22,578 bases of DNA from positions 1-22,578 of the IMG/VR virus record IMGVR_UViG_3300013101_000112; one strand, 5' to 3'. Shown piece after piece: positions 2,994-21,069 of this stretch (position 1 is its first letter; each line of letters begins with the position of its first letter). Position numbers and translations under genes: made by a program. Source of the DNA: a virus. Under the pieces are notes generated by a model that did not search any database, was not told the origin of the DNA, and was given only the letters and a program-made list of their open reading frames with translations.

Positions 2994-3022
2994 ATTGTAC
3001 ACCGGTTGGTGCATAGTGCCGA
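2994..3022 (-). promoter_or_regulatory. Leftward promoter P5, degenerate copy
   Basis: The -10 is TACAAT (2994-2999). The palindrome is imperfect: TACACC-N4-GGTGCA at 2998-3013 on the plus strand, central GGTT. The best -35 is TCGGCA (3017-3022, 17-nt spacer). A GTTTACAC site begins 2 nt beyond it. It is the weakest of the six promoters and would drive the 110-aa and 63-aa genes. Confidence 0.65.
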
Positions 3023-3313: not shown

Positions 3314-3341
3314 ATTATACACCGAATGGTGTACATGTCAA
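3314..3341 (-). promoter_or_regulatory. Leftward promoter P6, consensus -35 and -10 with operator
   Basis: Both hexamers are perfect: TTGACA (3336-3341) and TATAAT (3314-3319), with a 16-nt spacer. The palindrome TACACC-N4-GGTGTA (3318-3333, central GAAT) is perfect. It lies in the divergent gap between the leftward genes and the rightward late operon; no clear plus-strand promoter is seen in the same gap. Confidence 0.9.
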
Positions 3342-4418: not shown

Positions 4419-6041
4419 ATGTCAGTCGACGCAACAGCAACGATAGAGGCCACGGGCCTCGCCCCGAAGCGTAAGAATCTCGGACCCATCGTCGGTGGTC
4501 AGTTCCGACACGAGGTGAACGACGATGAGACTGTAACGATCTTCAACGTCCCGATCTTCGCCACGACCAAGCGCGGCGACTTCGACTACGATGACGCATG
4601 GATCGACGCGGCGATCGAGAACGCCGACAAGGAGTATCTCGACGGGCACTTGCCGCCGATGCACATGGGTCACTTCGACGATGAGCGCAATCCCAACCCG
4701 AGGGAGGTGGGCGCGTTTAAGATCCAGCGCAAGGGCACGATGATGCTCGGCGGCAAGCCGGTGCCGGTCATGTACGCCGACCTGTACGTGACCGACAGTG
4801 AAACGTTCGCGATGATTCAGTCGAAGCGTCTGCGCTATCGCTCGGTCGAGGCGAACTTCGACAAGCAACGCATCAGGTCGCTCGCGCTTCTCGACAGCGA
4901 GCCGCCGTTCCACAAGCTGCCAATGACCACCGTGTCAGATGACACAATCGAGATCCCGGATTCGCTTCCCGGCTCACTTGTAGTAGGGTTCTCGGAGTCG
5001 AAGCACTGCCAGCGAATCGCTCTGGAGTTTCCGCCGATGACCGTTACGAAGATCAAGTCGAACTGGATGGATGGACTCCAGATCGTTTCGTTCTCCGATG
5101 GCGAGGTTCGCGCCTACACGCCGTCCGGTCTTGACGAGCTGCGCGCCGAACGGCCCGAGTTGTTCGCAGAGGTGGAAGAGAGCGAGAACGAGCCCGGCGG
5201 TGAAGACAGTGGCGACGGTGCCGAGGCTGAGGACTTGATCGAAGAAGAGTCCGACAAGGCCGCCGAAGACGCCGCCGAAGAAGAGCCTGCCGAAGTCGAA
5301 GAGAAGATGGCCGACGAGATCAAGCCCGGCGAGACGTCCGAAGGCGACGACGAAGAATCCGCCGCGGAGTCCGACGACTTTGAAAAGAAGCCCGAAGGCG
5401 AAGAGGCGCAGATGGGGGCGATGGACGGCAAGTCTGACACCGTCAAGGCCATCGAAGCTCTGATCGATACACTTGGCGATGAGGCTGCGCTGAAAGCGAT
5501 TCAGGCCCTCATCGAGACGACCGTTGGTGAAGAGAACGGCATCCCCGAAGCGGGGGCCGAAGTACAGGGCGTGCCCGCGATCATGTCCGAAGGAGCTTCC
5601 ATGGATTCCGAGAAGATGAGCGAAATCATGGTCGAGAGCCGCACTCGCCTCGCGAACCTCGAAAAGTTCAAGGCCGACGTCATGAGTGAGCGCGCTGTGC
5701 GCGAAGCTGTTGCGTCTCTGTCCGGCCGGGTCACTGGCGAGGACATCGAGAGCGAGCTGGTCAAGTTCGCTGAAGAGCACGGCATCAAGGCCATGAAGAG
5801 CCATGCCGCTTCGCTCCGCAGCTCACTGCCCTCGATCAACGTCGAGGACAGCGAAGACAAGTTCGCGGAGGGCGGCGCAATGCGCAACGTTCCCGATGAA
5901 GTGGCGAAGTACCGGAGCAAGAGCCCCGAGCACTTCGAGGCGGCCTTCAAGGCCAATACACTGTTCGCTGATGGACGCTGTACGAGTCTCTCTCGTGAGC
6001 GTTTCATCGAGATCGAAGTCGACCGCGTGATCGGTTCGTAG
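4419..6041 (+). CDS. Mu I-like prohead protease fused in frame to scaffold
   Basis: A 540-residue protein in three parts. Residues 1-200 resemble the Mu gpI-type prohead protease, with candidate catalytic residues His82 or His85 (PPMHMGHF) and Ser142 (RLRYRSVEA), the positions expected from herpesvirus-like assembly proteases. Residues about 245-345 are a strongly acidic Glu/Asp/Ala/Pro linker. Residues about 395-540 are helical and charged, as in scaffolding proteins. A protease-scaffold fusion of this kind shapes and matures the prohead and is digested before packaging. No good Shine-Dalgarno precedes the ATG at 4419, 15 nt after the HTH gene, so initiation may be weak. An internal start at 5601 probably makes the scaffold alone. 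The catalytic residue assignment is inference from pattern. Confidence 0.85.
   Translation: MSVDATATIEATGLAPKRKNLGPIVGGQFRHEVNDDETVTIFNVPIFATTKRGDFDYDDAWIDAAIENADKEYLDGHLPPMHMGHFDDERNPNPREVGAFKIQRKGTMMLGGKPVPVMYADLYVTDSETFAMIQSKRLRYRSVEANFDKQRIRSLALLDSEPPFHKLPMTTVSDDTIEIPDSLPGSLVVGFSESKHCQRIALEFPPMTVTKIKSNWMDGLQIVSFSDGEVRAYTPSGLDELRAERPELFAEVEESENEPGGEDSGDGAEAEDLIEEESDKAAEDAAEEEPAEVEEKMADEIKPGETSEGDDEESAAESDDFEKKPEGEEAQMGAMDGKSDTVKAIEALIDTLGDEAALKAIQALIETTVGEENGIPEAGAEVQGVPAIMSEGASMDSEKMSEIMVESRTRLANLEKFKADVMSERAVREAVASLSGRVTGEDIESELVKFAEEHGIKAMKSHAASLRSSLPSINVEDSEDKFAEGGAMRNVPDEVAKYRSKSPEHFEAAFKANTLFADGRCTSLSRERFIEIEVDRVIGS
5601..6041 (+). CDS. Nested scaffold protein from internal in-frame start
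   Basis: An in-frame ATG at 5601 is preceded by GAAGGAG with 6 nt spacing, a far better ribosome site than that of the full-length gene. Translation would give a 146-residue product beginning MDSEKMSEIMVESRTRL, equal to residues 395-540 of the protease fusion. It is charged and mostly helical. The arrangement copies phage Mu I/Z and lambda C/Nu3, where an internal start makes many copies of scaffold and few of protease. The strong site inside an otherwise uninterrupted gene is seen directly; abundance and role are inferred. Confidence 0.75.
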   Translation: MDSEKMSEIMVESRTRLANLEKFKADVMSERAVREAVASLSGRVTGEDIESELVKFAEEHGIKAMKSHAASLRSSLPSINVEDSEDKFAEGGAMRNVPDEVAKYRSKSPEHFEAAFKANTLFADGRCTSLSRERFIEIEVDRVIGS

Positions 6042-6049
6042 GAGAAGAC

Positions 6050-6505
6050 ATGGCACTCGCACAGAACACGTTTTACGACACGCATCCCCGTCCGGTCACG
6101 CTGACCAACGCGCATCTCGTCGAGGACGCTGCACAGATTTGGTTGAACTCGCTCGTCGGCATCGATGCCACGAGTGGCCTCGCCATCCCGTACGACGGCG
6201 GCCTGACGGCATTCATGGGTCTCGCGACTCACGAGCGGCTCGGCACGAGCGGCGTCTACGGTGCTGGCGACTCGCGTGGCGAGATCGTCATCGACGTCTC
6301 CGGCCCACAGATCAAGGTGCCCGTCACTGCTGCGGCTTCGGCCGCCGACAACGGGCTCCCCGTCTGGGCGACCGATGACGGTACGTTCACCAAGACGGAC
6401 CCGACCGGCTCGCTGCCGGTTGGCTACATTCGTAACTGGCTCTCGGGAACGACTTGCTGGGTGCAGCTTTTGAGCGCCCAGGAGTTCTTCGCGCAGACCA
6501 CCTAG
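6050..6505 (+). CDS. Capsid cement/decoration-like protein (DUF2190-like)
   Basis: A 151-residue beta-rich protein beginning MALAQNTFYDTHPRPVTLTN. It shows the features of small capsid cement proteins: an N-terminal Thr/Val-rich strand, a central Gly-rich segment (GGLTAFMGLATHERLG), IVIDVSGPQIKVPV, and a C-terminal strand (GYIRNWLSGTTCWVQLL). Such DUF2190-like proteins lie just before the major capsid gene and lock capsid faces together. TAGGAG lies 6 nt before the ATG. The gene ends in two tandem TAG codons, 14 nt before the major capsid protein start. Assignment rests on size, position and strand pattern; a head decoration role is likely but not proven. Confidence 0.65.
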   Translation: MALAQNTFYDTHPRPVTLTNAHLVEDAAQIWLNSLVGIDATSGLAIPYDGGLTAFMGLATHERLGTSGVYGAGDSRGEIVIDVSGPQIKVPVTAAASAADNGLPVWATDDGTFTKTDPTGSLPVGYIRNWLSGTTCWVQLLSAQEFFAQTT

Positions 6506-6518
6506 TAGGAGTCTTCCG

Positions 6519-7478
6519 ATGGCTGTCAACAGTACAAACACGCAGCAGGCGGGTCTTCTCAATGACCATCGCGATGCTTTCCTCAACACTCGCCGTTCGT
6601 CAGACCCGAAGGTCTCGATGGCGATGGATCTCGGCCTGTCATCTGACAAGCGTGTCGAGACTCGTGCCTACTACACGGCAGCTCCGCATGCGCAGTTCCG
6701 CGCATACGGTGATCCCGTGAACGAAGGCCAGTTCGACAGTGTGAAGTGGGACACTCCGAACCACATCTACGACCTCCGCCTCTCGTGGAGCAAGTACGAT
6801 CGTGAGGACGATCTCACTCAGTCGCTCACCGAGCAGGCGCGCACCGGCGGGGCATCCCTCGCGGGTACGCCCGAGCGGGCGCTGTTCGACTACATCAACG
6901 GCACGACGCTGTTGATGCCGTCGCTCCAGAACGCTTCGGACGGTCTCGCGGCCTACAGCGCGACGACTCGCTTCGAGACCGCCGGTGGCAACATCGAGGC
7001 CGGTCACTCGTTCGCGAGTTCGAGCGGCGTTCGCATCGCGATCTATGCGGCGCACAACCGGTTCCGCCAGTTCAAGGCTCGCGGCGAGCCGCTTCACCCG
7101 GAGCCGGTGCTCGACAGCTCGATGCTCGTGATCTATTCGAGTGCCGACAACCTCACCTTCGCTGAGGCGTTCAACCTGCCGGTGGTGGATAACGCGAGCG
7201 GCAACGCTGGCATCTCCAACATCCTGCAAGCGCAGCTCGGCGGGCGTATCTATACGCTCTGGGAGACGAGCCGTTTGCCCGCTGGAACATGCGTCGTGTT
7301 CCTGTCTGGCGCGAAGAAGCCGTTCTTCATGCAGACGCGCACGAACATGGTCGAGTCGTACGGCGACGACGGCAACAGCGATGACGCTCGTGGCACCGGC
7401 CGCGAGTACGTCCAGTGGGAACAGCGACAGGGCTTCGGCGCTGGCGTCATGTTCGGAACGATCAAGATCACCGGCTGA
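6519..7478 (+). CDS. Major capsid protein, Mu gpT-like
   Basis: A 319-residue protein beginning MAVNSTNTQQAGLLNDHRDAF. Length and position directly after scaffold and cement genes fit a HK97-fold major head subunit of the Mu gpT type (about 305 residues). Supporting segments are the N-arm, a charged helix-rich region around WSKYDREDDLTQSLTEQA, a Gly/Ser-rich middle, and a C-terminal strand pair (EYVQWEQRQGFGAG, then FGTIKITG). AGGAG lies 8 nt before the ATG, the strongest expected expression in the operon. No proteolytic site can be assigned. A Mu-like fold is inferred from gene order and pattern, not from alignment. Confidence 0.75.
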   Translation: MAVNSTNTQQAGLLNDHRDAFLNTRRSSDPKVSMAMDLGLSSDKRVETRAYYTAAPHAQFRAYGDPVNEGQFDSVKWDTPNHIYDLRLSWSKYDREDDLTQSLTEQARTGGASLAGTPERALFDYINGTTLLMPSLQNASDGLAAYSATTRFETAGGNIEAGHSFASSSGVRIAIYAAHNRFRQFKARGEPLHPEPVLDSSMLVIYSSADNLTFAEAFNLPVVDNASGNAGISNILQAQLGGRIYTLWETSRLPAGTCVVFLSGAKKPFFMQTRTNMVESYGDDGNSDDARGTGREYVQWEQRQGFGAGVMFGTIKITG

Positions 7479-7510
7479 TCCACAGCCTCAGTCCAGAAAG
7501 GGTGTACGGT

Positions 7511-8269
7511 ATGACGACCCCGATAGCTGACAGAGTAGAGGAAGTCCGTCTGCGCTTGAAAAAGCTCGACGGCAAGGGCCCCGAATCGAAAGCACTTGGC
7601 GAAGAACTCAAGTCGCTCACTGAAACGAAGCGTGCCCAGGAAAGCGAGTTGATCTCGCCCGACTCGTTGCTCGGAGCAGCGGTCGACGTCCTGAAGAATC
7701 AGAAGATCGCGTACTACTGGTGCGGCACGATCCCGGTCGGCACGAAGCTCGATCCCATGGATCCGCTCGGCATCGCGACGATCGACGATCCGGAGATCCG
7801 ACCGCACCCGCCGTTCTTCACGACGATCATCGCCGGCATCAGCTTCCCGCAGTACATCGAGCCGATCTCCCGGCGTGGTGGCACGAGCGGCGAGCAGGAG
7901 CGTGTGCGTTTAAACGGAGAGGTTCATATCCTCCGTGAAGATCAGGTTCTACGCATCGCGGCCGAGATGCCGCTCACGTATGTGGACTGGACCCATCGAA
8001 CGCGCCTCACGCAAGACGAGTTCGGCAACCGCAAGCGTCTGAAGATTCCGACCGCACAGAAGGTCATGCTCCGCTCCGAGGAGTACATCCGTGAGGCCGA
8101 GGATGATGCGAAGTCGCAGAATCGTCGCTCGCATATCATCCAGCCGCGCATCACCGCTACAATGAAGCCGATTGGCCTCTACGTCTACATGGTGAAGGTT
8201 GTCGACGAAAATGGTAGGCTGGCAGGCATCCCGAAGCCCGTCTCGCAGTTGGGCATCAGTCTGCCGTAG
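7511..8269 (+). CDS. Hypothetical virion-associated protein (252 aa)
   Basis: A 252-residue protein beginning MTTPIADRVEEVRLRLKKL. The first 50 residues form a charged helix, possibly a coiled coil (EEVRLRLKKLDGKGPESKAL). The rest is mixed, with PPFFTTIIAGISFPQYIEPIS and a basic stretch around NRKRLKIPTAQKVML. The ATG at 7511 follows GAAAGGG by 10 nt and lies 32 nt after the capsid gene; the frame also runs back into that gene, so a longer form is rejected. It contains a GTTTAAAC site at 7908. Its place between major capsid and the CBM-bearing protein suggests a head-surface or connector role. No family is recognised. Confidence 0.75.
   Translation: MTTPIADRVEEVRLRLKKLDGKGPESKALGEELKSLTETKRAQESELISPDSLLGAAVDVLKNQKIAYYWCGTIPVGTKLDPMDPLGIATIDDPEIRPHPPFFTTIIAGISFPQYIEPISRRGGTSGEQERVRLNGEVHILREDQVLRIAAEMPLTYVDWTHRTRLTQDEFGNRKRLKIPTAQKVMLRSEEYIREAEDDAKSQNRRSHIIQPRITATMKPIGLYVYMVKVVDENGRLAGIPKPVSQLGISLP
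7908..7915. promoter_or_regulatory. GTTTAAAC site 3
   Basis: CGTTTAAACGG lies inside the 252-aa gene in frame CGT TTA AAC, using TTA, a leucine codon that looks rare in this GC-rich window. It has the same flanks (C before, GG after) as the junction copies. Confidence 0.5.
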
Positions 8270-8277
8270 GAGATCGA

Positions 8278-9573
8278 ATGTCTGGAACACCCACATGGGC
8301 GCAGCTCATTGACCGCCTCACGGCTGTAACGGACATCGACAAATCCACGCGTGCATTCGTCGAGGGCGAGCTTCTCGCCAAGTACGAGGTACTCGAAGCG
8401 GAGAGCGCCGGCGACTACGGTCCGTCCGGCAACCCCGGCTACACGCAAGGGCACCGCGGCATCATGTCCGGCAGCCTCAGCGCGGATCTCTTGCAGGTTG
8501 TCCTGATTCCGCTCTTAATGGATGCGGGCAAGGTGAGCGGAAGTCCGGGCACTGCAAACAACATCATTCGTCTGCGGAATGATTTCTTCGACTACATGCG
8601 ACTCGACGCAACCCTGAACCGGGTTCAGTCTCGCGTGATGACGTACGGTGCCGCTGCCCCCGGTGCGAACACGGGTGACGGAGACGTCGTGCGTCTCACG
8701 GTCGACGAACACGGTTTCGATCTCGAAGCCGTGACGAGTGAGCAGAAGACGATCATCTGCCGCGAGGACCAAACGCTCGGCTCGCGTCGTGGCGCAGAGC
8801 TGTTCGAGATCCACGGCACGGAGCCGTCCCAGGACAATATCAATCTGTTTATTCAGGGCTCGGCCCTGATCCAGTCGATGCGCGTACGGCATGCGGGCTC
8901 CGGCGACGGGCAGTCCCTCATGACGAACAGCAGCTTCGATGAGGCTCTGATCGTTGGCGTGCCAGCCGACACGGTTCCGGGCTGGGAGACGCTCATCGGG
9001 GATGCCGGTCTGACGCTGAACAGCGACATCTTCATTGCGCCGCCCGGCGTACAGGACGTCGACTCGTTCTCGCTCGATTCAGTCGGTGACTTCCACATCG
9101 TACAGAGCATCGAGGACGCTGGCTTCACAGCGAACGTCTCGACGCCGTACGTGCTCAGTGCGAAGATCAAGTCGACCGGTGCTGACGGATCGCTCACGCT
9201 GCGCATGGGCTCAAAGTCGATCACTATCCCTGATCTGACGGCTATCGGTGCTGGCTGGGTCGACGTCATCATGGTCATGAATACGGATCTGTGGCCCGCG
9301 AACTTCTACGAAGACCGCATGGACATCGAGGTTCAGGTTTCCGGTATGACCGCTGGCAACATCCAGATCGACAATCTGATCTTCACCGCTCTCGATCTCG
9401 CGGACAGCTCGTATTATCACATGCGCAGCGGACAGACTCCGTTCCAGCTCGATGACGAGTTCACGCTTGGTGACGCTGAGGGCGTCGACGCGAAGATCCA
9501 GCACATGTGGATCGCTGCGGGGCTCGGCTACCTGCCGCACGACGCCGCACCGACGATCCCGGATCCCACATAA
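8278..9573 (+). CDS. Virion protein with carbohydrate-binding-like module (431 aa)
   Basis: A 431-residue protein. Residues 1-214 are of unknown type, with helical N-terminus, GxxxRLxNDFF and Arg-rich motifs. Residues about 216-372 look like a CBM4/9-type jelly-roll: NSSFDEALIVG, VPGWETL, SVGDFHIVQSIEDAG, YVLSAKIKSTG, then DLTAIGAGWVDV, the usual 'N-SFE, PGW, D-W-i-Q, Y-l-S-k, W' sequence of such modules. A final segment of about 60 residues follows, so the module may be inserted. GGAG is 6 nt before the ATG. It sits between capsid and neck genes, so the module is probably displayed on the head and would bind host or environmental glycans. Module identity is a pattern reading. Confidence 0.7.
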   Translation: MSGTPTWAQLIDRLTAVTDIDKSTRAFVEGELLAKYEVLEAESAGDYGPSGNPGYTQGHRGIMSGSLSADLLQVVLIPLLMDAGKVSGSPGTANNIIRLRNDFFDYMRLDATLNRVQSRVMTYGAAAPGANTGDGDVVRLTVDEHGFDLEAVTSEQKTIICREDQTLGSRRGAELFEIHGTEPSQDNINLFIQGSALIQSMRVRHAGSGDGQSLMTNSSFDEALIVGVPADTVPGWETLIGDAGLTLNSDIFIAPPGVQDVDSFSLDSVGDFHIVQSIEDAGFTANVSTPYVLSAKIKSTGADGSLTLRMGSKSITIPDLTAIGAGWVDVIMVMNTDLWPANFYEDRMDIEVQVSGMTAGNIQIDNLIFTALDLADSSYYHMRSGQTPFQLDDEFTLGDAEGVDAKIQHMWIAAGLGYLPHDAAPTIPDPT

Positions 9574-9992
9574 TGGCAACGCTCAAGGAAGAGTTCCTGC
9601 TCCGCTACTCCGAAGCGCGAGTCATCCAGCTCACGAACCCTGATCTGCGCGCACCGCAAGCGATCGACACCGTGCGCCTCGACAGCGCAGTGGCCGACGC
9701 AAACGGCGACTTCGAGACCATGGTGCAAGCGGCGTATGCCGAGGACGACTCGCAGCACATCCGGGTCGGTGTGCTTCTGGTCGAGTCGATCCTCATGGAG
9801 TATGGATCCGCTACGGGATCCGCGGCTCAGGCAATCCGCGCTAAGGCGACGGATGAAGCCGCGAAGCTGCGCGTTGTGACCGGTCGCGGAAGGCCCGCGG
9901 TGCAGACGACGGCAATCCTGTCTCCGTACGGATCGTTCCCCGACATGCTCCCGAGTCCGCGTCTTGGGGAAGACCGTTCAGGCGGTGCGTAA
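9573..9992 (+). CDS. Neck protein, Mu gp36-like (DUF1320)
   Basis: A 139-residue protein beginning MATLKEEFLLRYSEARVIQLTN. The opening pattern 'E-F-x2-RY-x-EARVIQLTNPD', followed by IDTVRLDSAVADANGDFE and a helix-rich C-terminus, fits the DUF1320 family (Mu gp36), a head-tail connector subunit of about 140 residues. In Mu it lies immediately after the major capsid region, as it does here with two extra genes between. Its ATG overlaps the previous TAA by one base (TAATG), and its TAA overlaps the next ATG in the same way. The role in neck assembly is inferred from the family; sequence identity was not measured. Confidence 0.7.
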   Translation: MATLKEEFLLRYSEARVIQLTNPDLRAPQAIDTVRLDSAVADANGDFETMVQAAYAEDDSQHIRVGVLLVESILMEYGSATGSAAQAIRAKATDEAAKLRVVTGRGRPAVQTTAILSPYGSFPDMLPSPRLGEDRSGGA

Positions 9993-10783
9993 TGAATCCG
10001 CTACAGCAGATCGAGCAGCTCGACTACTTGACTCGATCTGCCGTGTGGCCGGGTGTTGGCGGGAAAGCCGTCATGGACTCGATGATCTCTGCGCTCACGC
10101 CGCAAGAGCTGGTCGGTGAGGCATCGAGCCACTTCGTAGTCTGGGCCCCGTCAACAGACACCGGTGACGCCGAGCAGCCGGACATGATCGACCAACGGTA
10201 CAGCGCGTGGCTCGCGTGCGTCGTGTACGGCGACCGGAAGGGCGAGCATCCCGTCATCGGCGGAACCATGGGCCCAGATGGCGTGCTGGCGAGCGACGGT
10301 CGCGGCCTGCTCGAAGTCCAAGCTCCGTTCCTCGAAGCGGTCGCGAAGCTCACCGGCGCGAACGGGATCCGGGCGACATGCGCCTACAAGAGCGGGATTG
10401 CCCCGGCGATGATCGATCGCACGAACTGGGTGTTCCGGCAGTACACGTTCCTGTGCATGGCGTCATCGAAAGCCTACTACCACCCTGTGCGCAGGCTCTC
10501 GAAGTCGGGCTCGACGCTCACATGGACGCTGCCCCCCGACAGGTTCGATCGGTTCCGCATCGTACTGAGGGTTGCGGACGGCTCCACGACCCCTCCAGCG
10601 TCCCCGACAGACGGCAGGGGAGTCGCACTCGCCTCCGATCTCGCGACGACTGTGGACGATCCTGCGGCGTCTCCGGTGGCCTATTCTGCCTTCGCAGCCT
10701 ACGATGGCCGGCAAGACGGTGCTCCTGCCGTCGAGAGGGCCTACAGCGCCCTGGAGGCTGGCTCGACGCTGGCGATCCCGTAA
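9992..10783 (+). CDS. Hypothetical neck/tail protein, possibly gp37-like (263 aa)
   Basis: A 263-residue protein beginning MNPLQQIEQLDYLTRSAVWPGV. The first 150-160 residues are mixed alpha/beta with a Trp/Tyr-rich stretch (RTNWVFRQYTFLCMASSKAYYHPV). The last 100 are Thr/Pro/Ser-rich and beta-like, resembling an added surface domain. Position after the gp36-like gene would correspond to Mu gp37 (DUF1834), but no specific motif confirms that. Both ends overlap neighbours as TAATG. Function is uncertain: a tail terminator or connector with an extra domain is the first guess. Confidence 0.6.
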   Translation: MNPLQQIEQLDYLTRSAVWPGVGGKAVMDSMISALTPQELVGEASSHFVVWAPSTDTGDAEQPDMIDQRYSAWLACVVYGDRKGEHPVIGGTMGPDGVLASDGRGLLEVQAPFLEAVAKLTGANGIRATCAYKSGIAPAMIDRTNWVFRQYTFLCMASSKAYYHPVRRLSKSGSTLTWTLPPDRFDRFRIVLRVADGSTTPPASPTDGRGVALASDLATTVDDPAASPVAYSAFAAYDGRQDGAPAVERAYSALEAGSTLAIP

Positions 10784-11349
10784 TGAGTACCCCGATCCTC
10801 AGAATCGCTCTCGTAGTGCCTGGGCGGCTCGTGTGGGGCGCGAATCCGGCGTTCAACACGTACCCCTACGGTGGGATCGAGCTGGGATTCGTTGGGCGCG
10901 TGAACTTCATGCCCCGCGAGCGCGTTCAGGAGATCACCGATCCGACCACCGGGCGCGTGCTAGATGCCGTGTCGGCTGGCGACAGTGCCCTTCTCTCGTG
11001 TCGTATTCGGGACGCCGATGACACTGCCTCTGAGGCGGTGTTCCTCAACACGGAGAAGGGTGCTGCTACCCAACGAATGCGGATCGATATCGGAGGGGAC
11101 AACGGTGCTGGGTACCTCTACTCACAGCGTGTAAACGCTCTGACCTTTGTGCCCGATGCCGTCGTGGATGGGAACAACGACATTCACAGGATTGTGCATT
11201 TCTACAAGGCCATGCCGCGCCAACAGGATAGCTTCGAGATCCTCTTGCGCATGGGATCCAAGGCCGAGATGCCGATCGAGTTCCAAGCGATCCCGAACGC
11301 ATCAGGGGAGCTTGCTACGATGCTCTTCCCCGGTGACGGACTGTTCTAA
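10783..11349 (+). CDS. Hypothetical tail protein, possible tube subunit (188 aa)
   Basis: A 188-residue beta-rich protein beginning MSTPILRIALVVPGRLVWGAN. It has repeated short strands, including YGGIELGFVGRVNF and SAGDSALLSCRIRD, and ends with the pattern MPIEFQAIPNASGELATMLF. That closing strand, turn, strand pattern is common at the end of phage tail tube subunits, which is the basis for a tentative tube call. It overlaps both neighbours by one base. A GTGTAAAC site lies inside it. No other ORF in the window is a better tube candidate, but this one is not proven. Confidence 0.5.
   Translation: MSTPILRIALVVPGRLVWGANPAFNTYPYGGIELGFVGRVNFMPRERVQEITDPTTGRVLDAVSAGDSALLSCRIRDADDTASEAVFLNTEKGAATQRMRIDIGGDNGAGYLYSQRVNALTFVPDAVVDGNNDIHRIVHFYKAMPRQQDSFEILLRMGSKAEMPIEFQAIPNASGELATMLFPGDGLF
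11129..11136 (-). promoter_or_regulatory. GTTTACAC site 4 (reversed orientation)
   Basis: GCGTGTAAACGC inside the possible tube gene reads CGTTTACACGC on the minus strand. It is the only GTTTACAC copy within a late gene in this orientation; the coding frame is CGT GTA AAC. Confidence 0.45.
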
Positions 11350-11978
11350 TGCCTCGCGTGACGATCGAGTGGGGCACCATGGTTGGGAGCCTCATTGAAA
11401 ATGCGAAGGCACCGAAGGCTATCCTCCAGCAGACTGCGGCGATTCTTGTCGCCGGCGCACGCGAAGCATTCCTCGAAGGCGGCAGGCAGCCCGAGGGGAA
11501 ATGGCCCGACCGCGCAGTTCCAAACATCGCAGGCATCTTCTCTGACTTCAGCGGTGGCAGACCCGCTCCGCTATCGCGTAGGTTCGAGACGGGGCAGACG
11601 CTCGTGGACACCGGCAGGTTGCGGCAGAGCGTTCAAGATCCGCAGAATGCCGAGATTGATCTGGCATCGTTGCTGGTATCGCTACGTTCAAATCTCCCGT
11701 ACGCGAGCAAGCAACAAGATGGCGCAACGGACGAACTGATCGGCGTCGTCACGCAAGAGTTCCAAGATTGGCTTGCGCGATTTCTGAAGAGCAATCCAGA
11801 CAAGATGAAGGATGATGCCGGTGGTCTCGGGTGGTTGCTGAATAAGACCATGCTCGACAAAGAGATCCGCATCGACATCCCGGCGCGTCCGTTTCTTGAG
11901 ATTACGGACCAAGACATCGAAGACATCGAGGACATGATCGGCTTGCTCATCGCGAGAAGCCCTGACACGGAGGCGTGA
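11349..11978 (+). CDS. Phage virion morphogenesis (tail completion) protein, gpG-like
   Basis: A 209-residue protein of the virion morphogenesis family (Mu gpG / P2 gpS type). The family pattern is visible in order: a helical N-terminus, GGRQPEGKWPDR near residue 42, TLVDTGRLRQSVQDP at about residues 84-98 (the LxDTGxLRxSxxx motif), YASKQQDG, and IPARPFLEITDQDIEDIEDMIG near the C-terminus (the PaRpFLgls motif). These proteins finish the tail or join head and tail. Its start overlaps the previous stop (TAATG), and its own TGA overlaps the next ATG. This is the most secure tail assignment in the window. Confidence 0.85.
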   Translation: MPRVTIEWGTMVGSLIENAKAPKAILQQTAAILVAGAREAFLEGGRQPEGKWPDRAVPNIAGIFSDFSGGRPAPLSRRFETGQTLVDTGRLRQSVQDPQNAEIDLASLLVSLRSNLPYASKQQDGATDELIGVVTQEFQDWLARFLKSNPDKMKDDAGGLGWLLNKTMLDKEIRIDIPARPFLEITDQDIEDIEDMIGLLIARSPDTEA

Positions 11979-12256
11979 TGGCAATCAGTGAATGGGGCAC
12001 AGGACAAGTGCTTGAGTTCTTCCGCACCGGCGGTCGCATCTCGGCGTCCGAGTTCAATGTCATGGACGCCGACACGCGTACGGCGTTCCGCATTCTGTTC
12101 GAGAAGACGGAGTCCGATAGGCTTGCTGAATCGTTGACGGTGGCATTTGCTCAGGCTGTAGAAGTCGCGGAGCAGAAAGATCCTGTAGACTCGCACAATC
12201 CGCCCGCGTCTGATGATGCCGGGTTCCCGATGAAGCTTGGAGAGGAATCAACGTAA
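11978..12256 (+). CDS. Hypothetical small tail-region protein (92 aa)
   Basis: A 92-residue acidic protein beginning MAISEWGTGQVLEFFRTGGRI. It has a helical core with hydrophobic faces (SEFNVMDADTRTAFRILFEKTE, AESLTVAFAQAVEVAEQ) and a disordered acidic tail. A GTG at 11975 would add one Met; the ATG overlapping the previous stop was preferred. It lies between the gpG-like gene and the large 488-aa gene, where tail chaperone or tail terminator genes often lie in other phages, but no frameshift motif or family signature was found. Function unknown. Confidence 0.65.
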   Translation: MAISEWGTGQVLEFFRTGGRISASEFNVMDADTRTAFRILFEKTESDRLAESLTVAFAQAVEVAEQKDPVDSHNPPASDDAGFPMKLGEEST

Positions 12257-13722: not shown

Positions 13723-15860
13723 TGCCTGGAGTCGTTGCAAGAGCAGTCCTCAGCGTGGGCGATACGTCCGGTGACATCTTCTTGGACGATAGGCAGGATG
13801 CGCGTTGGGCATTTCAGTGCGGAGTCCAGCCGTATGTCGGGATATTCACCGGCGACGAAGATGCGATGGAGAAGATCGCAACGACTGCCGGTGCTGTGTC
13901 GCTCACGCTTCGAGGTGCGCGCAAGTCCATCACGATCAAGGAACTGTTCGTGATCGGTGAGGGCCCCAGGAGGGATCCTTGGTCGAGGACCGTGATCGTT
14001 GCCGACAAGCGAATCTTCTGGAACAGGATCCACGTTCGCAAGTCGTTCAACATACGTAGGCGCTCCGGTGACTTGAGGCGAGAGACTGACGACGGTCCCG
14101 GAAAGAAGCAAGCACCCGCACAGGCCCAGAACGTAAGCCAGGACATCGGCTTTCGTGAGACGTCACTACTTAACGGCAAGCCGTACAATGCAGCGGAGGC
14201 CGTCGGGGCTGTACTCGATTCGGTCGTCGGTAAGGGGAACTGGTCTGGCGACTTGAGCAAGTTCCCGCAGGGCGAAGTCGACAGCATGGAGATCGACGAT
14301 CCCGGCGACGTTGCGCTACGTCGCGTGTTCGCACTCCTGCCCGGTGCCGACGTATGGATCGACAGGAACGGCGGCGTGATCGTAAAGGACGCCGCCAACA
14401 CGGGTGATGCCGAGGACGAGATCGAGGGCTTGCTGTTCCTCGAAGGTAGCGACATACCCGCACAGGTCGATCTGTCACAGATGAGGCCGCAGAATGTGAA
14501 CGTTCTATTCACACCGGAGCAGGAAATCCGTCTTGACTTCAGAGAGAACATACGCAAGGGGTCGAGCAACTTCTGGGTAGAGAACGTGATCCAATCACCG
14601 GACGAGAAGATCACCGTCGCGGGGAAGACGATCTTGCGAGGCATGTGGGTAGAGGCGTCCGCTCTCATTACCGCGTGGCAGAGCGAGCCGGGTTCACAGA
14701 ACCTCACCGAGTCGTTCATCCGTATGTTCTGGCCGTCCGCAGAACTTGAGAAAATCGTCGTACTACTTGGGAGCATGAACCCGGAAGTGGACTGGGTTGG
14801 TCGGCTCTCTGCGCTTCGAGCGCACTACCGGCGCACGTACCGCATCCCGAAGTTCTGGATGGATCGGTTCGAGTCGTTCCGTGCGTACCGTTGCTCCGTG
14901 CGTGATCCCGAAACGGGAACGTTTGGATCTTCGCCAGTGTGGCAGGACTACGCCGTGAAGTTCTCAAGCAAGGGAGCGTTCTTCAATGTCTCGAAGCAAG
15001 GTGTAGCGGCGAACGTGCTTGGTGGCGTGGACATAGGCAAGCCCCTGTCTGGCTCGAAGCCAGCACCGGGTAGGCTCTCAGTGCTCGACGCCGAACTTGG
15101 TATCATACAGGTCCAGTTCCTTGTCGACTACGCCGGTAACTTGGGCACGATCTATCCGAGTGCGTTCGTCGATGAACTGTCTACAGCTCCGCGTGTGAAG
15201 TTCCCTGTGTGCGCTGACGGGACGCGAGACGGTCGGCTCGGTGCCGTGTACTCGCTTCGCCCAAAGCACCGTATGTCTACGATCATCACGGCAGTACCGG
15301 CGGCACCGAACAGCGCCGCTCGGCTGATGGCAATCACGATCCCCTCAGCGATGGCACTGAGTCGCTTGCCCGCACGTACGAGGGCGAAGATCGGAGAGTC
15401 GAAGGGAATCAACTGGAGCGTGCGGGTTGCTCCACAGATCGCGACAGCTCGGTACGCCTGGGAGAATGGCAAGGCTGCGGCGATCAAGCGGGTGATGGGA
15501 GGCACGGCTGCCCAGGACACAGAGGACTCGTTCGACAAGCTGAACCACCCGAGCATCGCGGTCGTTCGGACTCTGCTCGACGGGCAGCTCGTGAACGAGA
15601 TCGAGCTTCTGTTCTTCGCTGAGTCGCTTGCGGCTGGTATCTACGCCACGATGACCGATCACACAGAGGGCGTCTTTGCCGTCGACATGAATCCGAATCT
15701 CAGGCCGGTCGGAAACATTCAGGCTGTGACCCACACGATCACTGGAGATGGTGCGTCGATTACTGGTATCGTGATGCCCCAACCGAGATTCATGGAAGAC
15801 GCAAACGCGCTCATGCCCGAGGGCGTGAGGAGCCTGATTCAAAGCAAGGTGCAACCGTAA
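13722..15860 (+). CDS. Large tail/baseplate hub-like protein (712 aa)
   Basis: A 712-residue protein and a candidate baseplate hub. N-terminal residues 1-110 are beta-rich (TSGDIFLDDRQDARWAFQ, then AVSLTLRGARKSITIKELFV). Around residues 195-222 an R-x-FALLPGADVWIDRNGGVIVKD segment resembles the 'G ... lyvD-x-nG-l-v-v' loop seen in tail hub and gpD-like proteins. The middle is mixed and the C-terminus has long strands. Large size and position just before the tape-measure-like gene agree with a hub, although in most siphophages the hub follows the tape measure. No lysozyme motif was seen. It overlaps neighbours by one base. A hub call is tentative. Confidence 0.5.
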   Translation: MPGVVARAVLSVGDTSGDIFLDDRQDARWAFQCGVQPYVGIFTGDEDAMEKIATTAGAVSLTLRGARKSITIKELFVIGEGPRRDPWSRTVIVADKRIFWNRIHVRKSFNIRRRSGDLRRETDDGPGKKQAPAQAQNVSQDIGFRETSLLNGKPYNAAEAVGAVLDSVVGKGNWSGDLSKFPQGEVDSMEIDDPGDVALRRVFALLPGADVWIDRNGGVIVKDAANTGDAEDEIEGLLFLEGSDIPAQVDLSQMRPQNVNVLFTPEQEIRLDFRENIRKGSSNFWVENVIQSPDEKITVAGKTILRGMWVEASALITAWQSEPGSQNLTESFIRMFWPSAELEKIVVLLGSMNPEVDWVGRLSALRAHYRRTYRIPKFWMDRFESFRAYRCSVRDPETGTFGSSPVWQDYAVKFSSKGAFFNVSKQGVAANVLGGVDIGKPLSGSKPAPGRLSVLDAELGIIQVQFLVDYAGNLGTIYPSAFVDELSTAPRVKFPVCADGTRDGRLGAVYSLRPKHRMSTIITAVPAAPNSAARLMAITIPSAMALSRLPARTRAKIGESKGINWSVRVAPQIATARYAWENGKAAAIKRVMGGTAAQDTEDSFDKLNHPSIAVVRTLLDGQLVNEIELLFFAESLAAGIYATMTDHTEGVFAVDMNPNLRPVGNIQAVTHTITGDGASITGIVMPQPRFMEDANALMPEGVRSLIQSKVQP

Positions 15861-16492
15861 TGGCCGACCAAGACGTAGTGATCCGGGTCCGGTACGACGT
15901 AGACGACTCCGATTTGCAACGCTCGATTCGCGAGGCGTCTGGACAGCGCGGAGGCTCCGGCAGTGGCGCTCGAACCGGGCTCAACTTTCGCGCTCCCGTG
16001 AGGGGCGGCGGAGGTGGAGGCGGCGGCGGCGCGATGATCGGCAGGGGCGCGATCGGTGGCGCAAGCATCGCGAAGCTCGGTGTAGCCGCTGCGGCACTCG
16101 TGCTGGCGGCTGGCATTTTCAAGTCGACCGCTGGAGACATAAAGGTCACGTTCGGTGCGTTCATGCGCGTGCTCGAACAGTTCGGTATCGACTTGGCCGA
16201 GAAGGTTGCTCCCGGCATCAGGGACACGGCTGATGAGATTCGCACACGAGGTGCAGCGAAGGAATACTTCAAGGGCTTTGGTGCAGCGAGCAACTTCCTC
16301 ACGAACGAACAGATCACGACCGGAGGAAATCTGGTAGCGCAGCGGAAGATGAACGAGCTTACAGCCGAGAGGCGCATCGACTCATTCTTCAACATCGATG
16401 ACAAGCGCACAGTCAAACATATCATCGGATTCGGTGGTCCGAACGCCGACGTCACGCTCAACGGTTCTGGAGTCGGTAGGTCCGGTCGATGA
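15860..16492 (+). CDS. Very short tape-measure-like protein (210 aa)
   Basis: A 210-residue protein beginning MADQDVVIRVRYDVDDSDL. The opening 'VVIRVRYDVDDSDLQRSIREAS' resembles tape measure N-termini. A Gly/Arg-rich linker follows with nine consecutive Gly at residues 49-57, then a hydrophobic segment at about 70-87 (AKLGVAAAALVLAAGIF) that could cross a membrane, then helical, charged sequence. Tape measures usually exceed 600 residues; at about 1.5 angstrom per residue this one would set a tail near 30 nm. Ends overlap neighbours (TAATG before, ATGA after). A membrane-spanning tail protein of other kind is the alternative. Confidence 0.5.
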   Translation: MADQDVVIRVRYDVDDSDLQRSIREASGQRGGSGSGARTGLNFRAPVRGGGGGGGGGAMIGRGAIGGASIAKLGVAAAALVLAAGIFKSTAGDIKVTFGAFMRVLEQFGIDLAEKVAPGIRDTADEIRTRGAAKEYFKGFGAASNFLTNEQITTGGNLVAQRKMNELTAERRIDSFFNIDDKRTVKHIIGFGGPNADVTLNGSGVGRSGR

Positions 16493-19146
16493 CCAAGATA
16501 TTCAATCAGGTTGACGGGTACCTCGTACTCCAGCACCACGATCCGCAGTTCGACATCGGTGCTCGTGCTGCCGTGTACGCGTGTCGGCTTGGCGAGGGTG
16601 GCCCGAAGTCGAGCATCGGTGCGTACGGCGAGAACGTCATGGGTCAGGATACCCGTGGCGACATCCTGAACGCTAGGCTATGGCGTGCCAACGCTGGCAA
16701 CGCAACGACGACCGGAGGATCTGCCGGTAGGGACATGCCCGGTTGGTCGTTCTGCATGCCGACAGTGGTCGGTGGTGTGCGTTCAGGTATACCGCGTGGC
16801 GACACAGTACGGGCCGGATGGGATGGAGAGACTCAGGTACTCGCGTACGGCAGTGAGAATGCAAATGGATTTGATACGTCCGCTCCGAAGGGATTCAGGC
16901 GGGTACTGACTCCTGAGCAACGAGGTCTCAAGAGGGTCTCGAAGAACGGATGGGCACTAACGACCGGCTATCGCACGGTCTCCCCTACGTCAATCACCGC
17001 GCTCCCGACGTTTGCAATCACGGGCAGCTTGAATCAGTTCACATCGTTCGGTGCGCGTAGCGGGTTCTCTAGCTTCTACCAGCCAGCGGCGCGCTACAAG
17101 AGCAGCGGCGGTGGGGCCGCCAACAACGTGCTCGCGTGGATGCAAGAGGGTTCGAGCACTCGCTCTGCCAGTAGCGGATACCATTCGAGCGGCGGCCCAA
17201 CGGTTACCGAAGCGAGCCCCATTCGTAGAGTCATCGGCGGTGGACTTGAGAAAGACCAACGCTTCGGGACCATAGGACATCTCGGACCGGCGTGGGACTC
17301 CCAGATCCCATCCGGTATGCGCGGCATCGCTCTGGCTGGCACAGAGGAGTTCTCTCAGGAGGAAATCTGGCTACAGACTGACGGACGTCTCGTAGCTCCC
17401 GGCTTCGGTGGTCCTCCGCGCATGGGGACACTCGTGGCTGATGTTGTTGGCGGCGAGATGTCCGCAGGCTCTCCCGCCGGTCTCGGTGGCCGACAAGCGT
17501 TCTTGCAGACGATGATGCGCGTCGTGCGTATGCCGTCATTCCTCAAGGAGATCACACACAACCCCGGCAACTCGCTCGCGTGGCTGCTCACCTCCGCAGA
17601 GCAGGGCGGAACATCCGGTCATGGCTTGGTGTTCGGCAGATCACAGAACGACGCTGGTAGCTCGAAGAGCCCTGGGCGCAAGCCCGTAGTTACCCCGAGT
17701 CAGACGACAGCCGAGATCATGGCGAGCGACCTGTACCAAGGTGCTCTTGCTCGCGCTCGCGCATCCGGTGGCGCGTTTGACTCACTTGCTACGATCAGCA
17801 CGATCGCGGCAGGCGGGTTCCCGAGTGCGTCGGGTTTAAACGCTCCGAAGACGCTCCCCTCGATTGGGCTCGTCAACAAGCTACAGACGACCAAGGCACC
17901 GAAGGAGTCGAACGACTTCAGTGGCGGACAGACCACTATCGGCATGATGGGGCACGAGGCTGGCGGACCGCTATCGCCCGGCTTCTACAAGGATGACGTA
18001 CATAATCTCGGCTCTGACAAGGACGGGAACCCGATCAACTCCGGACAAATCACAACGAAGGCGATCTTCTCGCGTAGCGTAGACAACGCCGGACCGCTGA
18101 TGTTCTCGCGCATCGACTATCCGCGTGACGTCGACTCAAGTTTCTGGGGCTTCAAGGAACGCGTATTCCTGTCATGGAAACAGCGCACGCGTCACTCGCA
18201 TCCTACCGGGTGGAAGGATGGCAAGTGGGATTGGTGGGTGAACGTTCCGTACATCTTCATCGAGGATGACGATGACGAACGCGAGCCTACTGATCCGTAC
18301 CCTCCGGGCAGGCCGCCGCCGGAAGAGGAAGAGCCCGAAGAGGAAGAGCCCGAGCCCGTCATCACTGGCGGTGGTAGCACGTTCCCGGGTATCCGCCCCC
18401 CAGTGAAGCCAACACCGATTGGTATCGGTGGAGGTGGTAGGCCGAACGTATTCGATCGCAACCTCAGCGGAAGCGGAGACAGCGGAATCGCGTTCATGGG
18501 CTCGGTCGGCCAGACGTCGATTGTCCACTACCCGCAGTCCGTGTATCCGAACGCGCCTGACTTCCGATTCGCACGACAGACCGATGAGGCCAAACGCGAT
18601 GAGCTTGTTTCGCGACCGGCAGTGTTGCGTACTGAGGCGTACGGCATGGAGCCGGACGGTCGATGGATCCACACAACGAAGCCGGGCATCGGTCGCGTGC
18701 GCGGTGGCATAGCTCGCGGTGGCGTGTTTGACATGCCTCCCGAGTTCGACATGTTCAACGTGGATGGTGCGGAGCGTCCCGGCATCCCGCCGGTTCCCCC
18801 CGATCCGCCTGATATCGTCTCATTCTCCAGTGTGATCCCGACGACGCAAGATTCCCTGTACCGCGGAATGGTGCCGGGCGTGTGGTCTGGATCCGGCTAC
18901 CCCGACACGAGCAACGGCGACATGATCGACGGTTCGTTCCGTCACGGAAAGGATCCCGATTCTGGGAACTGGACACTCAGCACGAAGATCGGAGGCCAGT
19001 GGCAGCCGTCGCTTGTCGTACGGCCCGGAAGCGGAGAGCTGGTCTACAAGAGCTTTCTGCTACAGTCCCCGAACGGCAACCTGCACAGGGTCGCTATCTC
19101 CGACACATCCGTGCTTGAGATCACAGACATTGGCCCGCCAGCGTAA
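16489..19146 (+). CDS. Large fibre-like tail protein (885 aa)
   Basis: An 885-residue protein, the largest in the window. It is Gly/Ser/Thr-rich throughout with many short strands, as in tail fibres and spikes. At about residues 600-625 there is a Pro/Glu-rich linker (PPGRPPPEEEEPEEEEPEP), and Pro-rich turns recur near residues 765-775 (PPVPPDPPDIV). The final 100 residues carry WTLSTKIGGQWQPSLV and LQSPNGNLHRVAISDTSVLEI, which look like a beta-helix or fibre tip domain. It overlaps the tape-measure-like gene by 4 nt. A GTTTAAAC site lies at 17834. A central tail fibre or tip is the likely role; the receptor is unknown. Confidence 0.6.
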   Translation: MTKIFNQVDGYLVLQHHDPQFDIGARAAVYACRLGEGGPKSSIGAYGENVMGQDTRGDILNARLWRANAGNATTTGGSAGRDMPGWSFCMPTVVGGVRSGIPRGDTVRAGWDGETQVLAYGSENANGFDTSAPKGFRRVLTPEQRGLKRVSKNGWALTTGYRTVSPTSITALPTFAITGSLNQFTSFGARSGFSSFYQPAARYKSSGGGAANNVLAWMQEGSSTRSASSGYHSSGGPTVTEASPIRRVIGGGLEKDQRFGTIGHLGPAWDSQIPSGMRGIALAGTEEFSQEEIWLQTDGRLVAPGFGGPPRMGTLVADVVGGEMSAGSPAGLGGRQAFLQTMMRVVRMPSFLKEITHNPGNSLAWLLTSAEQGGTSGHGLVFGRSQNDAGSSKSPGRKPVVTPSQTTAEIMASDLYQGALARARASGGAFDSLATISTIAAGGFPSASGLNAPKTLPSIGLVNKLQTTKAPKESNDFSGGQTTIGMMGHEAGGPLSPGFYKDDVHNLGSDKDGNPINSGQITTKAIFSRSVDNAGPLMFSRIDYPRDVDSSFWGFKERVFLSWKQRTRHSHPTGWKDGKWDWWVNVPYIFIEDDDDEREPTDPYPPGRPPPEEEEPEEEEPEPVITGGGSTFPGIRPPVKPTPIGIGGGGRPNVFDRNLSGSGDSGIAFMGSVGQTSIVHYPQSVYPNAPDFRFARQTDEAKRDELVSRPAVLRTEAYGMEPDGRWIHTTKPGIGRVRGGIARGGVFDMPPEFDMFNVDGAERPGIPPVPPDPPDIVSFSSVIPTTQDSLYRGMVPGVWSGSGYPDTSNGDMIDGSFRHGKDPDSGNWTLSTKIGGQWQPSLVVRPGSGELVYKSFLLQSPNGNLHRVAISDTSVLEITDIGPPA
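17834..17841. promoter_or_regulatory. GTTTAAAC site 6
   Basis: GGTTTAAACGC inside the 885-aa gene, frame GGT TTA AAC. On the minus strand it reads CGTTTAAACC, matching the C flank of other copies. It again uses the apparently rare TTA codon. Confidence 0.45.
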
Positions 19147-19704: not shown

Positions 19705-21069
19705 ATGGGGAAGTTCTTCAATCTCCGCGGCTACTACACCGGCGACGGTGGAGGCACACCGTTTACACCCTTCGACCTGGATGGGTTCTACGATGGGTTC
19801 ATCGCGCTTGAAAGTCAGTGCATCACGCAGGGTTCTGCGAAGTTTTTGAGCGCAATCTCAAGCTACCTAGATGGCGGGCAGGTTGGCGTTACAGCCGTAA
19901 ACGACTTTACGATCTGCGGTTGGATCACCGTTGACGATCTGACATTGACGAACTACGTCTATACGAAGTGGGAACCCGGACTCGACTTCATACTCAGCGT
20001 TGAAACAGCGGGGCGCATGAATTTTGCCATACGCAATGGAGGCGGAACTCAGATACGCAGGTCGAACAACCTCACGGTTTCACCCGGTGTCCCTGTGTTT
20101 TGGTGCATCAGAAACACGGCGGCAGCTCGCCTCATGGAGATCAGGAACAACGAGGACGCTTTCCTTGGGACGGTGTACGCGAACCCCGCAGACGGCGGCG
20201 CAGCAGAACTCCTGATCGGTGCGTCACACCAAGGAAGCCTGGGTTCAAATGCAAACCAGCAGAGGGTCGCGTCATGGAACCGCGTTCTGTCTGATGCCGA
20301 AGTCGAGGAGTATTACAACGGCAACGCCGGGCTCACCTACGAGAACCTGCCCGTAGGGCTGCTCACCGGGCTCGTCTCGTACTGGGGCCTGAGCGAGCGC
20401 AGCGGCGTGCGCGCAGACCAACACGGCACGATGGACTTGACCGCCATCAACGCACCCGGCGTAGTACAAGGCCACATCAAGAGCCAGTGCGTAGACAACA
20501 GCCCCGTGACGACATGGGTCGGTGTGAGCGGGCGCAGCGCAGTGCAGGCCGCTATCGCATCGCAGCCCACGTACATCGCGAGCGGCCTGAACGGCGAGCC
20601 GGTGGTGCGGTTCGACGGGACGCAGTGGCTCGCCACCGTGCTACTGGCCCCTGCACTTGCGCAGCCTCTCACGATGCACGTTGTGCATGGGCCGACAGTA
20701 GCGGACGCGAGCGAGAGAAACTCCGCGTGCGGCGGCGCGGGGCGCTCTCGTATAGGTACAGAGAACAGCGCGTACGCGGGCAGGGCCACGGCCCTGGTAT
20801 CCGGCGGCGCGCAGTCGCTTGTGGCGGTGAGGCAGCAGTTCGTGTTCAACGGCGCGTCGAGCGAACTGATCGTTGACGGCGTCTCGCTTGCGGTAGGCAA
20901 CGCTGGCGGGCAGGGGATGGTCTACGCGGTCGTAGGCAGCGGCAGTCATTCCGGGGTTACAGCCGCGTGGGTCGGGGACGTCCCGTTCGTCGCGTTCCAG
21001 CACGCTGTGGCAACGCCCGACGAACTGGCGAGTATGGATGCGTGGATGAAAGCGAGGTACTCACTGTGA
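19705..21069 (+). CDS. Double LamG-like lectin, probable receptor-binding protein (454 aa)
   Basis: A 454-residue protein with two concanavalin/LamG-like regions. Residues about 35-210 show NDFTICGWITVDD, then WCIRNTAAARLMEIRNNE and RVASWNRVLSDAEVEEYYNGN, the classic end pattern of LamG3 domains. Residues about 275-454 show VVRFDGTQWLA, then a second block ending VAFQHAVATPDELASMDAWM, again the 'N-R-L-S-x-E-I' type end. Such domains bind glycans, so host recognition is likely. GAAGG lies 6 nt before the ATG. The second half looks more GC-rich and uses AGC/GGC more than the first, suggesting the domains have different origins. A GTTTACAC site is at 19761. Confidence 0.72.
   Translation: MGKFFNLRGYYTGDGGGTPFTPFDLDGFYDGFIALESQCITQGSAKFLSAISSYLDGGQVGVTAVNDFTICGWITVDDLTLTNYVYTKWEPGLDFILSVETAGRMNFAIRNGGGTQIRRSNNLTVSPGVPVFWCIRNTAAARLMEIRNNEDAFLGTVYANPADGGAAELLIGASHQGSLGSNANQQRVASWNRVLSDAEVEEYYNGNAGLTYENLPVGLLTGLVSYWGLSERSGVRADQHGTMDLTAINAPGVVQGHIKSQCVDNSPVTTWVGVSGRSAVQAAIASQPTYIASGLNGEPVVRFDGTQWLATVLLAPALAQPLTMHVVHGPTVADASERNSACGGAGRSRIGTENSAYAGRATALVSGGAQSLVAVRQQFVFNGASSELIVDGVSLAVGNAGGQGMVYAVVGSGSHSGVTAAWVGDVPFVAFQHAVATPDELASMDAWMKARYSL
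19761..19768 (+). promoter_or_regulatory. GTTTACAC site 7
   Basis: CGTTTACACCC near the start of the lectin gene, in frame CCG TTT ACA CCC. The downstream flank differs from the GG seen in most copies. Confidence 0.45.

Follow-up and report, generated by a model that had tools for sequence, protein, structure and literature searches.

A phage head-block gene encodes a protein with a predicted carbohydrate-binding-module-type jelly-roll nested in a small virion beta domain

The open reading frame considered here is a real gene, and its product, P0001, is built from a helical N-terminus, a small beta domain that is split by a nested jelly-roll of the type found in carbohydrate-binding modules (CBMs), and a C-terminal segment, an arrangement for which the evidence comes from a family of 82 ORFs in 48 clusters. 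The gene lies in the window, the whole stretch of DNA analysed, which is a 22,578-base IMG/VR virus record (Table 1), and its stop codon overlaps the start codon of the next gene (TAATG). P0001 matches no family in Pfam, PHROGs or NCBIfam. The fold, the nesting, the conservation of the module within the family and the gene order were all obtained by computation. P0001 is most likely located on the outside of the head or neck, where it would hold virions near glycans.

Table 1. Coordinates of the gene, its parts, its neighbours and related elements (window positions, unless a locus is named)
Feature	Position	Strand	Detail or basis
P0001 gene, whole	8278..9573	+	431 aa, ATG at 8278
AGGAG, ribosome-binding-site-like, just 5' of the P0001 ATG	8268..8272	+	
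P0001 residues 7-109, four helices (7-42, 52-66, 69-86, 96-109)	8296..8604	+	AF2 model
P0001 residues 122-206, first half of outer beta domain (GANTGDG..., C161, D164, E174-F176, G180)	8641..8895	+	
P0001 residues 211-372, nested CBM-type jelly-roll (predicted)	8908..9393	+	VIA-align and leave-one-out profile
P0001 residues 373-402, second half of outer beta domain (SGQTPFQLDDEFTLGD region)	9394..9483	+	
P0001 residues 403-431, C-terminal segment (short helix 406-413, conserved YLP...DPT end)	9484..9570	+	
Major head protein gene	6519..7478	+	via relatives
253-aa gene, flanked by the major head protein and P0001 genes	7508..8269	+	
Adaptor-like gene, whose start codon overlaps the P0001 stop codon	9573..9992	+	weak matches
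TRTACAC-N5-GGTGTA copies	137-156, 949-968, 1462-1481, 2397-2416, 2996-3015, 3316-3335		
GNGT...TPFxxGDxFT carriers	L107:831-3317, L089:334-2895, L091:3208-5670, L077:1851-4316		
GNGT...TPFxxGDxFT carriers, continued	L068:894-2843, L036:3737-5584, L135:1-552, L098:2809-3738		

An AlphaFold2 model of P0001, made from 44 aligned sequences with P0001 first, reached a mean pLDDT of 87.5 and a pTM of 0.85; the model made from the single sequence (pLDDT 40) was too poor and was discarded. In the retained model, the four N-terminal helices are followed by half of a small beta domain (strands 136-140, 156-163, 175-179 and 198-202), by the jelly-roll, with ten strands within residues 237-371, and by the other half (strands 378-383 and 394-398), after which comes the C-terminal helix. 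VIA-align of residues 211-372 with solved CBM61, CBM16 and CBM4 modules gave Z scores of 13.0-14.5 over 127-139 residues, the best being the CBM61 module 2xom (TmCBM61; Z 14.5, 2.4 Å, 131 residues), with CBM16 chains (2zew, 2zey and 3oea) reaching 14.3 and the CBM4-2 module 2y64 reaching 13.2 (2.8 Å, 139 residues). These matches span most of the module, and, as the tool's own note states, a common fold shows no function. On the model and these alignments, P0001 has a jelly-roll of the CBM4/9/16/22/61 type.

A first-pass annotation of the sequence had read a CBM4/9 module at residues ~216-372 from the order of its motifs, and its span agrees almost exactly with the match to the solved CBMs. The motif order stands, with PGW at 234, DFHIVQ at 271, YVLSAK at 291 and GW at 326, while the first motif is SFD rather than SFE (TNSSFDE at 216-222). 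The structure prediction that it had proposed gave a jelly-roll and not a fold unlike one. The narrower class assignment fared less well, as CBM61 and CBM16 are structurally the best matches, with CBM4 close behind, and P0001 has no match to CBM_4_9 (PF02018; curated cut-off 25.9 bits) at E <= 1. The proposed profile search against CBM families was therefore negative for P0001 itself and positive for two of the ten homologues scanned, L190 (36.6 bits) and L010 (28.8 bits), which pass the PF02018 cut-off; L013 (21.8 bits) and L182 (16.6 bits) score below it and the other six have no match. PF02018 matches 3 of the 44 members of alignment A6 at E <= 0.1. When the modules of ten distant homologues were used as a profile, the CBM4 module 1gui (1.1e-5) and the CBM22 module 1h6x (2.2e-4) were found in the PDB.

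Searches with the whole protein gave further structural matches. The best viral match over the full length was a nameless BFVD entry, A0A516L1K0 (TM 0.73/0.69, 18% identity), and the architecture of P0001 is therefore already present in public models. The Foldseek viral list includes an HFTV1 protein (A0A410N6W3, E 1.8e-5) that is annotated as a polysaccharide deacetylase, and the tailspikes CBA120 TSP4 and K2-2 TSP are also structural matches. Ranked by E-value, the top Foldseek rows from the PDB were insecticidal Vip3/Cry proteins; we rejected a relation to these toxins, since the rmsd exceeds 20 Å across several domains and single CBM modules top the VIA-align results, and we read the likeness as a common make-up of helices and a jelly-roll. 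Antibody chains returned by phmmer from the PDB, most of them over residues ~148-228, were read as spurious. Since VIA-align also finds the jelly-roll fold in enzymes, the HpiC1 cyclases, the fold leaves sugar binding unproven.

Judged from profile matches, the sequences before and after the module are the two halves of one small beta domain (GNGT...TPFxxGDxFT), to which we give the working name phage-virion small beta domain; no Pfam entry for it was seen, in particular none in scans of L098, L107, L135 and L068. A profile of residues 122-206 and 373-402 was made from 43 members with the module columns omitted; it matches P0001, which is included in it, at 123-215 and 359-401 (E 5.4e-35), with both halves in order. 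The same profile matches unbroken stretches of ~100 residues in the sheath-like proteins of L107 (148-249, 5e-6), L089 (145-248, 7e-6; both whole-sequence E-values), L091 and L077. In the L135 protein, of the lambda-D decoration type, it matches first one half and then the other (6e-9). Pfam and PHROGs identify the L135 and L098 proteins as HDPD/head decoration and that of L068 as tail sheath; for L107, the Pfam sheath matches fall short of the cut-offs, and the PHROG match, to phrog_2839 (tail sheath), has an E-value of 7.1e-12. When non-family ORFs were shuffled or reversed, none matched the profile at 0.05. Because it was a second-half pattern that retrieved the loci with these proteins, matches to that half are expected by construction, and it is the first-half match and the spacing that are informative. 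The domain is found repeatedly, with tandem copies in some cases, among tail sheath proteins and head decoration proteins of the lambda-D type.

P0001 itself has no match to HDPD (PF02924) and no Pfam match to the tail sheath family, and shares with the decoration proteins only this accessory beta domain. Decoration proteins of the lambda gpD type (PF02924) and those tail sheaths that contain a beta domain as an insertion thus have the outer domain in common with P0001, but their copies are uninterrupted, whereas that of P0001 is split by the module. The flanks of the module had been called head-type at first pass; a virion type is upheld by the lambda-D-like decoration proteins and the tail sheaths that share the domain, which, being found in sheaths as well, does not mark the head alone.

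The position of the gene between the major capsid gene and the neck genes, noted at first pass, was confirmed, with a gene weakly resembling Mu gp36 and adaptors as the downstream neighbour. The product of the major head protein gene matches no family in Pfam or PHROGs; three of its relatives match phrog_371, 'major head protein' (4.6e-7 to 5.4e-10). The matches of the adaptor-like product are weak (Mu Gp36 in Pfam, 0.019; phrog_195, head-tail adaptor, 4.2e-5), and g9570, g9992 and g10816 are named from weak matches or from position. The product of the 253-aa gene has no family match in Pfam, PHROGs or NCBIfam, and is the best phmmer match for five fetched ORFs. The order major head protein, P0001-family gene, adaptor is kept in 25 of the 48 clusters; in two more the head gene is upstream and the downstream neighbour is unrecognised, in one the adaptor is downstream and the upstream neighbour is unrecognised, and in 12 the places needed have no recognised neighbours. 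An extra 1-2.4 kb lies between the family gene and the adaptor in four loci (L025:4430-6824, L118:10217-12395, L096:12339-13576 and L059:2463-3602). It is between the major head protein and the adaptor that head proteins are usually encoded. This gene order, with the head gene recognised through phrog_371 and the adaptor through weak matches, favours a place for P0001 at the head or neck rather than the tail.

The remaining eight clusters place the family gene against the tail-side g10816 instead: in five it precedes g10816 and the adaptor is unrecognised, in one (L176) it lies between the adaptor and g10816, and so after the adaptor, and in two it follows g10816. Such a placement suits the neck or tail as much as the head, and these clusters are among the grounds for the strongest alternative, an adhesin at the connector, the collar or a tail site, whose module would bind host glycans there and not on the head. 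The TAATG overlap with the adaptor-like gene points the same way, as do L010 and L013, where the family gene precedes short genes that resemble, by position, a tail terminator and a tape measure, and the CBM_4_9 domain described for a tail-side gene of another phage, ORF22 of P1312, in the available part of that report (PMC4569894). Set against this are the 25 clusters in which the major head protein and adaptor genes flank the family gene, and the use of the outer domain in head decoration as well. We consider an adhesin at the neck or tail rather unlikely, though the better of the alternatives. One of the 44 aligned members matches phrog_15641 ('tail fiber protein'), over the module region alone, and for that reason this match was not used as a marker of location.

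Relatives of P0001 were gathered with DNA patterns for such motifs and then with alignment-based scans. With P0001 as the query, tblastn found nothing among 50,697 phage records, whether the E limit was 0.01 or 10, single-sequence scans gave no relatives in viral contigs or genome contigs, and scans with the neighbouring products (major head protein and g9992) retrieved none. Likewise, the family members P0002, L016, L185, L067 and L032 had no clear relative among the 50,697 records by tblastn, the one marginal match (E 0.04) being between the module of P0002 and a Klebsiella phage tail fiber protein. L016 matches P0001 over residues 106-431 (BLASTP E 2e-33, 29% identity), and phmmer with P0001 found 13 relatives (E 7.3e-43 to 4.2e-21). 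Profile A4, a 13-row alignment of P0001 and 12 relatives, matched the 82 family ORFs at E < 1e-5 among 10,040 ORFs (>= 80 aa) from 191 loci, the window (L001) being left out; these were joined into the 48 clusters by common 30-residue strings, and the cluster counts are not a measure of prevalence. Loci L019-L136 come from among the matches listed for the DNA pattern of the second half of the outer domain. The host was not found, since none of the 28 stretches that A4 matched in genome contigs was confirmed, and a narrow literature search found no description of the family.

The module is present in all 44 aligned members, taken as at least 60% of module columns filled (lowest value, 86%). N217, W236 and Q276 are identical throughout. 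Tryptophan occupies position 327 in 39 members and tyrosine in 5; position 339 has tryptophan in 33 and tyrosine in 5, and position 252 has tyrosine in 36 and phenylalanine in 5, one of them P0001. Among 43 members (the 3'-truncated L171 was dropped), mean pairwise identity is 0.21 for the helices, 0.38 for the outer domain, 0.30 for the module and 0.36 for the C-terminus, and distances in the outer domain and in the module are correlated (r = 0.85). As it is kept in every aligned member and changes with the outer domain, the module is a fixed part of the protein, and by the same correlation its swapping as a host-range cassette was not seen. The N-terminal helical part (8278-8604), the expected anchor, varies the most. 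The module profile matched no ORF outside the family among the 10,040, and a profile of distant members matched two, both in L014: these are adjoining large ORFs (6039-9590 and 9569-12130) that contain CBM-like modules of the same kind as the family (E 1.5e-7 and 1.1e-6), and one of the two ORFs also has collagen-like GPTG repeats.

We propose that the gene product is a minor structural component of the virion body, at the head surface or the head-tail neck, in which the N-terminal helices and the small, widely reused virion beta domain would form the anchor. The CBM61/16/4-type jelly-roll, of ~160 residues, interrupts a loop of the beta domain immediately ahead of the GxTPFxxxDxFT strand pair, and for this reason would point outwards. 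Copies on the particle could then bind glycans of the host capsule, exopolysaccharide, biofilm or mucus, weakly and multivalently, holding virions close to cells until the tail engages its receptor. We give this reading, a minor virion-body protein whose outward jelly-roll binds glycans and holds virions near cells, about an even chance; its incorporation into the virion, the outward display, the glycan binding and the effect on adsorption are what we infer. Against an adhesin role counts the finding that the module is less variable than the helices and tracks its flanks, unlike a fast-changing receptor binder.

That same constancy is what would be expected if the jelly-roll had a purely structural or protein-docking role in assembly, as a cement or a neck collar, with glycan binding lost or never present. 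An assembly role of this kind would also fit the lack of a Pfam CBM match in P0001, and the invariant residues N217, W236 and Q276 may serve the fold. However, the conserved aromatic residues at 339 and 252 could make a binding platform, and the position of the module, in a loop of a domain that is complete without it, suggests that it is displayed outwards; we regard the assembly role as improbable, more so than an adhesin at the neck or tail. That the motif order arose by chance, with no CBM-like domain behind it, has been refuted as far as fold prediction goes and has practically no probability left, for although P0001 has no match in the family libraries and its single-sequence model was poor, a leave-one-out module profile (43 homologues without P0001) gave it 71.5 bits, compared to a best of 6.6 bits for 1000 module-shuffled copies, and the high-confidence model aligns to solved CBMs with a Z of 14.

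If the virion-body reading is true, the window virus and its relatives may carry a putative glycan holder on the particle body, and glycan binding borne by the head or neck would be a standing trait of a lineage, with 48 clusters and the module in every aligned member. The binding of glycans by phages is for the most part attributed to their tail fibres and spikes, the head examples being Hoc and the HFTV1 turrets. More tentatively, and with somewhat less than an even chance, we suggest that an uncultivated phage lineage has a fixed, vertically inherited virion-body lectin, a CBM jelly-roll in a mobile beta domain, and that this domain is a general 'socket' for surface-binding modules on heads, necks and sheaths. 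The nested design would be a way of adding a binding module without disturbing the virion scaffold, and the family provides expressible proteins with which head- or neck-borne glycan binding can be tested.

P0001 is not the first of its kind, as the HFTV1 turrets and T4 Hoc are precedents. Of those compared, HFTV1 is the closest: the available part of its report (PMC12494034) describes a galactose-binding-like domain of the turret head protein gp31 on the capsid turrets, proposed to hold host glycans, and proposes an N-terminal carbohydrate-binding module on the head turrets. As far as that source goes, both are CBM- or galactose-binding-like domains of tailed viruses, that of P0001 being predicted; in HFTV1, an archaeal virus, the domain is paired with a deacetylase-like domain on a separate turret base, whereas the module of P0001 is nested in a beta domain with no enzyme attached. 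For T4 Hoc, the BAM model, as presented in the section available (PMC9853417), has a head-borne, weakly binding glycan or mucin module, an Ig-like precedent for mucus; Hoc and similar decorations have Ig-like folds, while P0001 has a predicted CBM jelly-roll and its mucin binding is putative. The jelly-roll is also what P0001 has in common with CBM61, CBM16, CBM4 and PF02018, of which 1gui was reached from sequence by the homologue profile. The solved CBMs are 12-14% identical to P0001, which has no profile match of its own, and they stand beside a glycoside hydrolase, whereas the module of P0001 lies inside a phage head-block protein and its binding is putative.

CBM-type jelly-rolls in phage proteins are, in the partial accounts available, otherwise located at the tail. 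Those of P1312, CBA120 TSP4 and K2-2 TSP resemble that of P0001 and belong to the tail or tailspike, whereas the P0001 gene lies in the head block near the major head protein gene. The excerpts available for Peru-2 (PMC13320782) and the R4C megatron (PMC10276861) likewise describe a CBM domain in a tail part or tailspike. Phage 7-7-1 is reported to have head fibres of unassigned protein (PMC12796354).

Elsewhere in the window, a 210-aa gene (15860-16492) at the place of the tape measure is followed by an 885-aa gene (16489-19146), neither of which has a Pfam or PHROG match at E <= 0.1; as a tape measure, the 210-aa product would mean a very short tail. In the tail region, the protein encoded at 19705-21069 has a Laminin_G_3 (concanavalin-like lectin) domain (E 2.2e-6) and is a possible second glycan-binding fold, as predicted from its sequence, in the same virus. 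Six palindrome copies of the type TRTACAC-N5-GGTGTA lie among small minus-strand genes in the left 3.4 kb, several of them inside longer direct repeats. The 12 strand matches, compared to 0.23 expected, are probably those of an operator or a phage promoter element.
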